Part shown: positions 1 to 3,790 of the stretch, piece by piece
Layout: every line of letters begins with the position of its first letter
Numbering within the stretch: position 1 is the first letter of the stretch
From: Streptomyces roseirectus
GTDB taxonomy: Bacteria; Actinomycetota; Actinomycetes; Streptomycetales; Streptomycetaceae
Assembly: GCF_014489635.1 (NCBI RefSeq)
Contig: NZ_CP060828.1
Location: 2,890,001 to 2,954,000, forward strand
Length of the DNA stretch: 64,000 nucleotides
Reading direction: 5' to 3'
The notes under the pieces: model-generated
What the model was told of the DNA's origin: nothing
What the model saw: the letters and a program-made list of their open reading frames with translations, nothing else
The model's database searches: none
Program-made: the position numbers and the translations under genes

Positions 1-3000
1 ATGTCGCCCGAGTACACCTTGCCGCCCGTGGGCCCGGCCGCCAACGCCCGTACGGGCAGGGTGAGTCCGCCGAGGTCGCCGCCAAGTGCCGTGGGCCGGG
101 CCGGATTAGCGGTGTTCCAGGCGCGCAGTCCGCCGGCGTACCGGTTGCGGATCTCCAGGTAGGCGACGGCGAGCGTGTCGCCGTCGGCGCTGAAGGCGAC
201 GGCCGACACCGGGTGCCCGGGGCCGGCCAGCGGGGGCGCGAGGGCGACCGGCCGGGCGGGCGAGGAGACGTCCCACAGCCGGACCTCGCCGGTGAACTCC
301 CCGGTGGCCAGCACGGGTTGACGTCCGGGGCGGAACGCGAGCGTGTTCACCGCCCCGGCGAGCGGCGGGAGTTCACCGAGCCTGACGAACCGGTCCGGCA
401 CGGAGACGTCCCACAGCGTGACACGGTTGCCGGTGGCGACGGCGATGCGCCGCCCGTCGGGGCTCGCGGCGAGCGCCAGCACCTCGTCGCCGATCAGCAG
501 CGCCGGGGGCAGCCGCCACACGCGGACGAGTCCGTCGGCGCCGCCACTGACGACCGTACGGCTGTCGGGGCCGAACGCGAGGGCGCTGACGAGACCCGAA
601 TGGCCGCGCAGCGCAGGGGAGATGAGGCGGGCGCGGGCCGGGGCGCGGACGTTCCAGAGGTGGACGCCGCCGGAGGTGTCGCCGGTCGCGAGGAGCTGCC
701 CGTCGGGGCTGAAGGCGACGGTGTTGACGGCCGCGCGGAGCATGAGCTGGTTGACCTGGGGGAGGCGGGCCGGGCGCGTGAGGTCCCACAGCAGGACCCG
801 GTAGTCGCTGGAGGCGGTCGCGAGGGTCCGGCCGTCGGGGCTGACCGCGACCTGGTTGACGACGAGGCCGTGGCCGCGCGCCGGGTCGGGCAGCGGCTTC
901 GGGCGGGCCGGGTCGGTGACGTCCCACAGCTTCAACAGGGCCGCCCCGGTGGCTCCTTGGGCGGTTCCGCCGCCCACGACGAGGACCTTGCCGTCGGGGG
1001 TGAGGGCGACGGAGTTGACGCCCTGGCCGCGCACGCTCAGCGGGGTGCTGAGCCGGCGCGGGCGGCGCGGGTCGGCGAGGCTCCACAGCTGGACGTCACC
1101 CATGAGCTGGGCCGGCGTGCCGGGTTTGCCGAAGCCGCTGGTGGTGAGGCCGACGGCGAGGGTGCGGCCGTCGGCGCTGAGCGCGAGGCTCCCGACCGTC
1201 CCGGCGGAGACCCGCACGGGCGCGGACAGCGGCTGCGGGCGGGCCGGGTCGGACGCGTCGAGGACGCGCAGCAGACCGTCCGAACTCCCCCAGATCACCA
1301 GCTTGTTGCGCGCGTCGTGGACGACGGGCTGGATGCCGCCGGTCTTGGTGCCGGCGCGCGTCGGCGGGCCGGCCGGGGTGGGGGCGGCGGTGCGGGGGAC
1401 GTGCCAGGCGCGCAGCCGGCCGAGGGTGTCGGCGGGGGTGGAAGCGGCGGTCAGGAGCCTGCCGCCGGGGCCGAACGCGACGCTGTGGACGAGGCCGAAC
1501 CGGTCGGGCAGGGTCTGCGGCAGCACCGCGCCCGACGCGGTCAGCAGCCGGGTGCGCAGGGCGTCCGTGGGCCTCATCCCATAGGCGGTCAGGTCGAGTT
1601 GGGCGGCGAGCGCGCTGTCCGTGGCGCGCAGCCGGTCGGCCTCGGCGGTGACCCGGTTGAAGATCGCCTCGTCCCGCTGCTCGACGGCCTCCCGGCCCCG
1701 GTCGAGCGCGTACACGGCGAGCGCGGACGCGGTCAGGGCGAGCACGGAGACGACGGCGACGGCGCCCCGGCGCAGCCCGCGGCCCCGGCGCTGGTGGGTT
1801 CCGGAGGCGCGCAGGAAGTCGGCGGCGAGCGGGGTGACGTCGGCGGGGTCGGCAACTGCCGTCCAGGAGCGGGCCAGTTCGAGGCGGGCGCCGCGCAACA
1901 GGGCGTCCTTGTCGCGGCGTCCGCTGTCGGACCAGCGCGCGGCGGCCTCCCACACCTCCTGGCGGACCAGGGTGCCCTCTTTGCGGGGCGCGATCCACTC
2001 GTCGAGCGTCTTCCAGCTGCGCAGCAGCGCCTCGTGGGTGATCTCGACGGTCTCCTCGCCGCGCCGGGTGCCGTCCTGGGTGAGCAGCCTCGCCCTCGTG
2101 AACTCCTCGACGACGAAGGGGACTTCGGCCGGGTCGCGGGGTTCGAGGAGGAGTTCGCGGCGGGTGCGGCGGCGGATCGTCGTCTCTCCGCGTTCATCGA
2201 CGCGGACCAGTCCGGTGAACAGGGTGCGGGCCACCTGTTTCTGAGGGTCCGTCAGCCGCTCGTACACGGACTGGGCCGCGTTGTGGACGGCCATGTCGAT
2301 GCCGCCCGCCGCGCGGTACGCGGCGACGGTCATCCGGTCGCCGGTGCGCTGCTGCCAGGTCGAGTGCAGGGCCTGGGAGAGGAACGGGAGGCGGCCCGGC
2401 GGGTAGGCGTCCGGGCGCCGCCGCGCGCCGGCGCGCAGGTCGCGGACGATGACGTCGGCGAGCTGGGGGTCGATCGTCAGGCCGCGCACCCTGGTCACCG
2501 GGCCCTCGATCGCCTCGCGGACCTCGTCCTCGGTCATCGCGCCGACGATCACGTCGTTGCGCAGGGCCGCCCGCAGGTGGGGGTAGGGGGCGCAGTCGCC
2601 GTAGCGGTCGGCGCGCAGGCCGTGGACGACCAGGGCGAGGGGGGTGAGCGCGGCGAGGGCGTCGACGAAGCGGGCGCGGGCGTCCTCGTCGTCGCACTGG
2701 GTGAAGAGGTCTTCGAGCTGGTCGACGACGATGACCAGGCGGCTGCCGGGCGGGAGTTCGAGGGTGGTGCGGAGCAGTTCGCGGAAGGTGGCGGGGCCGT
2801 GGTCGAGGGCTTCACGGAAGGTGGCCGCGCGGGCGGCGAGTCGGGGGTCCGGGGCGGTGCCGGGGGCGCGCGCTCCTTCGACGCCGAGGGCCACGGCAGC
2901 CTCGTCGGCATCGGCGTCTTCGGTGTCTGCGGCACCGGGTCCCCCCGTCGCCAAACGGGCGCAGGCTTCCGCGAGTTGCCCCACGGGGTCCTCCGTCGGC

Positions 3001-3392
3001 CGGAGCAGGAGGTGGGGCCAGTACTGGGCGCCGGGAAGCATGCGCCCGGAGGCCAGGGCCGGGAGGAGACCGGCGCGCAGGAGCGAGGACTTGCCCGCGC
3101 CCGAGGGGGCGACGACCGCCGCCGGGGTGCCCTCGTCCAGGCAGCGCGCGAGGGTCCGTCCCAACTCCGCGACCAGACGCCGCCGTCCGAAGAACCAGCG
3201 CGCCGACTCCCGGTCGAACGCCTTCAGTCCGGGGTACGGGCACTCGTCGACGGCGGAGAGGCTGTCGTCGTGGGCGGTCGTGCCGTCGCCGTAGTGGTGG
3301 ACGACGATGTCGCGGCCGGCCTGGAGGAGGGTGCCGTCGCCGGAGGCCCAGGCGGTCAGGGTGAGGGCGACTTCGCCCTGACGGTCCGTCAC
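1..3392 (-). CDS. STAND NTPase-TM-WD40 repeat protein (C-terminus beyond window)
   Basis: The start is GTG at 3392, in a 4-base GTGA overlap with the upstream small gene, so the two are translationally coupled. About 1130 codons are present and the frame is still open at base 1. Residues 21-34 read TLLQAGRDIVVHHY, a short motif matched in the partner's C-terminus. PYPGLKAF and WFFGRRRLV (about 52-74) are typical of the N-terminus of nSTAND1 NTPases. The Walker A motif APSGAGKSS lies at about 95-103. A hydrophobic segment near residue 545 (AVAVVSVLALTASALAV) is a likely membrane helix. Beyond it, repeated units with endings such as VRLWDV and LKLWDV form a WD40 propeller. Known role of the family: a signal-sensing ATPase in regulation or conflict systems, with the propeller as sensor. 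The ligand and output here are unknown. Confidence 0.85.
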   Translation of the reverse strand, partial: MTDRQGEVALTLTAWASGDGTLLQAGRDIVVHHYGDGTTAHDDSLSAVDECPYPGLKAFDRESARWFFGRRRLVAELGRTLARCLDEGTPAAVVAPSGAGKSSLLRAGLLPALASGRMLPGAQYWPHLLLRPTEDPVGQLAEACARLATGGPGAADTEDADADEAAVALGVEGARAPGTAPDPRLAARAATFREALDHGPATFRELLRTTLELPPGSRLVIVVDQLEDLFTQCDDEDARARFVDALAALTPLALVVHGLRADRYGDCAPYPHLRAALRNDVIVGAMTEDEVREAIEGPVTRVRGLTIDPQLADVIVRDLRAGARRRPDAYPPGRLPFLSQALHSTWQQRTGDRMTVAAYRAAGGIDMAVHNAAQSVYERLTDPQKQVARTLFTGLVRVDERGETTIRRRTRRELLLEPRDPAEVPFVVEEFTRARLLTQDGTRRGEETVEITHEALLRSWKTLDEWIAPRKEGTLVRQEVWEAAARWSDSGRRDKDALLRGARLELARSWTAVADPADVTPLAADFLRASGTHQRRGRGLRRGAVAVVSVLALTASALAVYALDRGREAVEQRDEAIFNRVTAEADRLRATDSALAAQLDLTAYGMRPTDALRTRLLTASGAVLPQTLPDRFGLVHSVAFGPGGRLLTAASTPADTLGRLRAWHVPRTAAPTPAGPPTRAGTKTGGIQPVVHDARNKLVIWGSSDGLLRVLDASDPARPQPLSAPVRVSAGTVGSLALSADGRTLAVGLTTSGFGKPGTPAQLMGDVQLWSLADPRRPRRLSTPLSVRGQGVNSVALTPDGKVLVVGGGTAQGATGAALLKLWDVTDPARPKPLPDPARGHGLVVNQVAVSPDGRTLATASSDYRVLLWDLTRPARLPQVNQLMLRAAVNTVAFSPDGQLLATGDTSGGVHLWNVRAPARARLISPALRGHSGLVSALAFGPDSRTVVSGGADGLVRVWRLPPALLIGDEVLALAASPDGRRIAVATGNRVTLWDVSVPDRFVRLGELPPLAGAVNTLAFRPGRQPVLATGEFTGEVRLWDVSSPARPVALAPPLAGPGHPVSAVAFSADGDTLAVAYLEIRNRYAGGLRAWNTANPARPTALGGDLGGLTLPVRALAAGPTGGKVYSGD

Positions 3393-3790
3393 GGCTTCGG
3401 TGTCCGGCCGATGTTCATGTCCCCGGCGGACTGGTAGATGCGGGAGGTGTCGTGGGACTCGGCGTGGAAGGAGACGCCGGACTGCCGTGCCCGCGGGGCG
3501 AGTTCGGCGACCAGTTCGAGGAGGGCGCGGGCGGCGTCCGGGTCGTCGGCCATCAGCCTCCTGAACCTCAGCCGCCAGGCCGCCGTGAGGTCGGCGCGGT
3601 TCGCCTCGTCCGCCGGGTCGGCGAGCAACAGCTCACGGTCCCGGGCGAGTTCGAGCGCCAGACGCTCGGTGTCAGGGGTACGACGCAGCCGCGCGAGAAG
3701 CGTGCGGGCGCGTTCCCAGGTCTCCGTGGTGAGCGCGCCCACAAGCGCGTTCGCGGCACTCGCCGCGAGCGTGGCCAACTCGGTGTCCAT
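3389..3790 (-). CDS. Small partner protein of the STAND NTPase, with C-terminal amyloid-like motif
   Basis: This is a 133-residue protein. I chose ATG 3790 (MDTELATLAASAANALV) because a G-rich ribosome-binding stretch lies 9 bases upstream and this is a familiar N-terminus for the family; an in-frame ATG at 3826 is the alternative. The body is helical and charged (ERARTLLARLRR, ARALLELVAELAP) with no catalytic motif that I recognise. The last 15 or so residues (SRIYQSAGDMNIGRTPKP) resemble residues 22-32 of the downstream STAND protein (LLQAGRDIVV). The stop codon overlaps the GTG start of that gene. Short proteins ending in such motifs next to STAND NTPases are known in actinobacteria and are proposed to signal through amyloid-type templating. 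The function here is inferred from that pattern only. Confidence 0.75.
   Translation of the reverse strand: MDTELATLAASAANALVGALTTETWERARTLLARLRRTPDTERLALELARDRELLLADPADEANRADLTAAWRLRFRRLMADDPDAARALLELVAELAPRARQSGVSFHAESHDTSRIYQSAGDMNIGRTPKP

Follow-up and report, generated by a model that had tools for sequence, protein, structure and literature searches.

A two-gene locus of a 9.95 Mb Streptomyces chromosome encodes a small helical protein and a STAND receptor that carry a common short motif of ~21 aa at their facing ends, and is best read, from sequence comparison, as a divergent BASS/Bell-type pair to which no known BASS family is assigned. We consider it probable that the two genes form a BASS-type signalosome. 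The window analyzed is a stretch of 64,000 nucleotides (positions 2890001–2954000 of the chromosome), and comparison of its pair with homologous loci establishes co-encoding of the partners, the common motif, concordance of motif class and a modular N-terminal slot in the receptors.

The gene pair and the identity of the small domain

Both open reading frames (Table 1), their overlap and the residues quoted in the earlier note are present in the sequence. The segment LLQAGRDIVVH occupies residues 22–32 of the STAND protein, as had been stated, and the small-protein segment RIYQSAGDMNIG, which had been placed at the very end of that protein, corresponds to residues 117–128 of 133, i.e., it lies near the C-terminus but is followed by five more residues. 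The two genes overlap by 4 bp, which is the arrangement expected of a BASS pair (adjacent or overlapping genes). The closest named orthologues come from S. niveiscabiei (86%) and S. acidiscabies (84%), and most homologues of the small protein share the consensus start MDxEL.

Table 1. Features of the gene pair (positions in the window)
Feature	Positions	Strand	Details
Small protein, candidate Bell-like effector	3389..3790	-	133 aa, ATG at 3790
Five-helix N-terminal domain of the small protein	3494..3790	-	residues 1-99, AlphaFold2
Small-protein C-terminal motif FHAESHDTSRIYQSAGDMNIG	3407..3469	-	residues 108-128
STAND receptor	3..3392	-	GTG at 3392; 1311 aa in total, extends past the window start
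STAND receptor N-terminal motif LTAWASGDGTLLQAGRDIVVH	3297..3359	-	residues 12-32
nSTAND1 NTPase of the receptor	1911..3239	-	residues 52-494; Pfam PF20703, 358.7 bits, E 7.2e-107
Receptor TM-like segment	1704..1760	-	residues 545-563, after an Arg-rich stretch; Kyte-Doolittle 2.28
Receptor WD40 propeller region	3..1490	-	from residue 635; Pfam PF00400 and related models

The receptor consists, from N to C, of the motif, an nSTAND1 NTPase, a TM-like helix and WD40 repeats. Its PF20703 score far exceeds the gathering score of 27.1 bits, which places it among the nSTAND1 NTPases. A TM-like segment between the NTPase and the WD40 part was found in all six nSTAND1 partners examined and, judging from the Arg-rich stretch that precedes this segment, the WD40 part might be located outside the cell.

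The AlphaFold2 model of the small protein, built from 81 sequences, consists of five helices (residues 3–20, 25–35, 41–57, 62–82 and 86–97; block pLDDT 80–96 over residues 1–100) followed by a tail that is modeled with low confidence and, in the monomer, without secondary structure, so that a small helical domain is predicted N-terminal to the motif, as in Bell effectors. The predicted fold has no match among solved structures and no clear resemblance to a HeLo/MLKL-like fold, and the window protein hits no Pfam family above the cut-off. The best 19-residue hydropathy in its first 60 aa is 1.14 (0.49 to 1.75 across the family), i.e., there is no clear TM helix.

Homologues of the small protein were detected in 167 of 295 Streptomyces genomes (E 0.001), and a profile search (E 1e-6) found them in 58 of 394 genomes, representing 14 of the 137 genera of the class. 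The same genome encodes a paralogue, L121 (direct match to the window small protein, E 2e-5), which ends with AVQSGDGNVQVNRF and five additional residues and possesses the QxGxxNxQ core of BASS3 that is absent from the window tail. When compared with a profile made from 42 tails of the L121 group, the BASS3 peptide of Frankia (ORT49035.1), which is reported to be amyloid-like (PMC8086366), reaches 26.4 bits. A S. atratus BASS3 protein mutated at Q113 and Q120 served as a prion control, according to PMC9815663. In P0168, a 128-aa relative of L121, both of these positions are likewise occupied by Q; P0168 itself, rather than the published sequence, was compared with the family profile, which includes L121, and yielded an hhalign probability of 97.6%. 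In the one genome searched of S. atratus, that of JCM 3386, no P0168-like BASS3 protein was found. Because the BASS3 motif is present on the L121 paralogue and the family is widespread, the small domain probably corresponds to the Bell effector domain already described, a connection that is specific although indirect. The suggestion of the earlier note that the small-protein body represents a new output is therefore not supported.

Motif classes and their concordance between partners

We studied 103 loci, of which 100 were taken from match lists (mostly best first, with some entries skipped, and with ~4 kb on either side) and three came from a further orthologue search. The small domain is present in all of them and, in seven, is part of one long ORF. 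The 96 unfused small proteins fall into four tail classes, A (54, YQAGRD-like), B (33, NSISGGVxHGPVxQ-like), D (8, AVQGGN-like) and C (1, BASS3-like); classes were assigned by pattern, except for L056, L057 and L076, which were assigned by eye, and the tail of L080 is of class B by pattern and of class D by eye. The window tail belongs to class A.

By itself, the window alignment on which the earlier note based the common motif would not stand. The two termini yield a local alignment score of 18, which is equalled by 84% of 2000 shuffled tails, and their best local alignment involves some other stretch, not the motif. Thus, a single short motif at the effector C-terminus and the N-terminus of an NLR-like receptor, the hallmark of a BASS pair, is weak in the window alone, whereas the relatives and the class profile recover it. 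The pair of the orthologue L038 scores 39 (shuffle fraction 0.0045), the S. niveiscabiei pair, SRIYQSAGDMNIG and SRVLQAAGDIVVH, scores above 99.5% of shuffles, and L055, a more distant nSTAND1 pair, reaches 55, a score attained by none of 2000 shuffles; the shuffle fractions for L039, L041 and L051 are 0.0115, 0.0055 and 0.0035, respectively. Against a class A tail profile from which the window clade (L122, L038 and L039) was excluded, the N-terminus of the window receptor scores 18.7 bits. When the class A profile was run against 10,698 six-frame ORFs of the 103 loci, the window receptor scored 12.8 bits (E 0.039), and the matches of at least 8 bits outside the small proteins comprised 44 adjacent partners and six other motif-bearing ORFs of the same loci, with no match at this level elsewhere in the 103 loci.

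The downstream ORF chosen for each locus starts at −4 in 56 of the 81 loci that have one, under a selection that favored −4, −1 and −8. Sixty loci were counted as tightly coupled, with an ORF of at least 120 aa starting at −4 (56), −1 (1) or −8 (3) relative to the stop of the small gene. Using class profiles derived from tails only (window clade out, other cognate tails in, the single C tail without a profile), the N-terminus of the partner was assigned to the class of the tail in 44 of 44 A, 6 of 11 B and 1 of 4 D loci; among the 60 pairs, none was discordant and nine were unassigned, with related loci counted as independent here and in the permutation and Q-column counts below. Two of the unassigned class B partners, in L085 and L107, are nucleotidyltransferase-like ORFs that, by eye, resemble unrelated neighbors. 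When all ORFs are considered, a motif of the same class is present elsewhere in the locus for 49 of 54 A, 9 of 33 B and 3 of 8 D tails. L136 and L138 are class A loci that lack a profile match, and yet the motif is visible in the core alignment. For the other 24 of the 33 class B tails, no motif of their own class was found within 4 kb; the partners of these orphan tails may act in trans, or our reading of class B may be incomplete.

The similarity of the 60 cognate pairs exceeds that in all 20,000 of 20,000 permutations, and z is 4.4 for 52 pairs when the permutation is confined to the 21-residue core. The central Q of the motif is missing from the tail in six pairs, in five of which the receptor has lost it as well, as opposed to no receptor loss (0/46) among the pairs where the tail keeps it. 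In this count, L198 was scored Q/Q by eye, L082 and L136 were included despite loosely coupled partners, and L196 (a near copy of L055) and L188–L190 (already in the set) were omitted; L127, the partner of which is located upstream, is outside the count and goes against the trend (M in the tail, Q in the partner). The matched losses span at least two receptor families, nSTAND1 (L051 and L205) and NB-ARC (L138). Within the nSTAND1 class, pair-specific covariation is not significant (p 0.11, 12 pairs). Class concordance, together with linked presence (see below), supports the homotypic BASS-like effector/receptor pair proposed in the earlier note.

The receptor slot and membrane partners

A search with residues 1–150 of the STAND protein produced matches in 47 of 246 genomes (E 1e-20), and 30 receptor loci were returned, including the window, L189 and L190. 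The motif is present in 12 of these receptors and absent from 18. The small gene lies upstream of 10 of the 12 motif-bearing receptors, L192 and L195 being the two for which it was not detected there, vs. none of the 18 motif-free ones (Fisher 2.2e-6, with related loci treated as independent and with two weak small-domain matches, near the motif-free L214 (E 0.017) and L197 (E 0.018), left out). By eye, 11 of the 18 motif-free receptors start with an HTH and seven have another start. Ten motif-free receptors were scanned; all three HTH-like ones among them match HTH_31, and a caspase domain was found in four of the seven non-HTH ones, in one case just below the Pfam cut-off. Given the caspase and HTH domains in motif-free receptors and the small gene next to motif-bearing ones, the N-terminal slot is filled either by a domain in cis or by the motif, in which case the partner is supplied in trans. 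Small proteins without a tail, which the earlier note had named as evidence against the pairing, were not found beside motif-bearing nSTAND1 receptors: all 13 such small proteins (10 from the receptor search plus L038, L039 and L055) have the tail, L200 weakly (12.8 bits).

The small domain also appears to be paired, through the motif, with membrane proteins at loci that have no NLR partner. This genome contains two instances of the pattern QxGDGNxQ, one in each of the two neighboring genes of L121. The L121 partner is a protein of 235 aa that contains the motif, a TM segment and a ricin-B lectin, and no NLR gene is evident by eye among the ORFs listed for the surrounding 8.4 kb. In nine of the 103 loci, motif-bearing partners with one or two TM-like segments are encoded either downstream (L040, L044, L054, L078, L081, L117 and L121) or upstream (L077 and L094) of the small gene; in the L117 partner, these segments are at the C-terminal end. 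A second set of 30 loci, collected with the L121 small protein, includes 24 partners with a BASS3-type motif at 8 bits or more and, in addition, that of L222, recognized by eye; a TM-like segment is present in nine of the motif-bearing partners and absent from the others. With one locus common to the two sets, there are 17 membrane-partner loci in all.

It is possible, and we propose it tentatively, that amyloid-type signaling extends beyond NLRs: the small domain would be coupled by a class A or BASS3-type motif to membrane proteins that have the motif at their presumed cytosolic N-terminus, mostly with one TM segment and then a presumed outside domain behind it (in this genome, a ricin-B lectin). 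The window STAND protein, with its TM-like helix, could then be a mixed form in which an outside signal is templated inward. Whether signaling amyloids operate in NLR-free pathways is a question raised in a 2021 review (PMC7889193), for which the membrane partners described above provide direct candidates. We found no account of NLR-free partners in the portions of the literature that our search covered, most subscription journals being outside its scope; EAD-linked systems with lectin-fold modules have been described, and the passages concerned mention no amyloid motif.

A model of the pair and its relation to known systems

In the signalosome reading, the WD40 part of the receptor would sense a ligand, and NTP-driven clustering of receptors would gather the N-terminal motifs. 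These could seed a beta-arch (amyloid-like) fold, onto which the disordered tail of the small protein would be templated; its helical domains, once clustered, would act as a Bell-type cell-death effector, most likely at the membrane. Since some related receptors have a caspase or an HTH in the same N-terminal slot, the motif would stand in for the domain in cis, the effector being supplied in trans.

Of the alternatives, the one that survives best, although we consider it unlikely, is that the motif serves as a strand for homotypic docking, i.e., that the receptor and its partner form a finite beta pairing that is not amyloid and involves no prion-like templating. Motif sharing and covariation, which are the whole of the evidence here, would be equally expected from docking, and no tested BASS family is assigned to the class A motif; on the other side, the same small-domain family includes a sister class that is BASS3-like, and for that motif the Frankia peptide is the one reported to be amyloid-like. 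It is quite unlikely that the small protein is instead an adaptor or an inhibitor that restrains the receptor, with the true effector encoded elsewhere. The S. atratus protein with a TIR domain that ends with a class A motif and is encoded ~2.3 kb from a small gene would fit that role. On the other hand, two fused ORFs were scanned, L064 and, from this genome, L114, and in both the small domain takes the N-terminal effector position, with a motif and then NB-ARC and TPR matches behind it; moreover, apart from the adjacent partners, just six motif-bearing ORFs are detected by the class A profile across the 103 loci. A chance resemblance or a functionless relic of gene fission, although compatible with the shuffle-level score of the window pair alone, is highly improbable and already disfavored by the class concordance, the linked presence and the Q covariation.

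Under the preferred reading of a BASS-type pair, the locus looks like a divergent example of known prion-like signaling pairs rather than a new kind. The BASS1–10 systems, with their Bell effectors and NLRs, are likewise described as adjacent or overlapping genes with the motif at the effector C-terminus and the receptor N-terminus and with a small helical effector, in filamentous actinobacteria (Dyrka et al., 2020); TIR and CHAT effectors have also been reported in BASS systems (PMC7889193), and the S. atratus TIR protein that ends with the class A motif likewise speaks for this reading. Unlike in BASS1–10, the class A motif is vYQagrDxxi, to which no published BASS profile is assigned, and the receptor is set apart by its nSTAND1 NTPase combined with a TM-like helix and WD40 repeats. 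The BASS3/RHIM-like motif (Frankia ORT49035.1, S. atratus WP_037701008.1) occurs on the L121 paralogue, within the same small-domain family, whereas the window pair lacks its QxGxxNxQ core. EADs (the comparisons draw on PMC8086366, PMC12261475, PMC7889193, PMC9815663, PMC7885112, PMC8195603 and PMC10907252) likewise involve homotypic recruitment, swappable effectors and STAND and related cores, but are described as small, mostly helical domains, in contrast to the 21-aa tail found here, which is structureless in the monomer model. These loci offer a set of tightly coupled bacterial pairs that combine a single small domain with several classes of motif and several types of receptor, and tail swaps among them could thus be used to assay the specificity of the motif.

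TM and TM-like segments in the motif-bearing partners

A TM-like segment separates the NTPase from the WD40 part of the STAND receptor, and the same arrangement was found in all six nSTAND1 partners examined. At three other loci (L040, L044 and L054), the small gene is followed downstream by a gene for a partner of 271–288 aa that starts with the motif YQTxRDQ or YQASRDQ, contains one TM segment and has a C-terminal part without any Pfam match.

Small-domain loci with other contexts

At L121, a locus elsewhere in this genome, the next gene overlaps the small-protein gene and encodes a motif followed by a TM segment and a ricin-B lectin; no NLR gene is evident in the 8.4 kb surrounding the pair. 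For small proteins with class B tails, no motif of the same class was found within 4 kb in 24 of the 33 loci. In S. atratus, a small-protein gene lies ~2.3 kb away from a TIR_2 gene.

Coordinates of the features discussed
Feature	Location	Strand	Remark
TM-like segment of STAND receptor	window 1704-1760		
L121 small-protein gene	G000:C1:8216840-8217247		BASS3-like tail
TIR_2 protein (S. atratus)	L175:1495-2142	minus	class A motif at its end

Fusions of the small domain

The small domain is included in one long ORF at seven loci (L063, L064, L105, L111, L114, L119 and L128); a domain scan of L064 and L114, the latter from S. roseirectus itself, identified both fusions as NB-ARC/TPR proteins.
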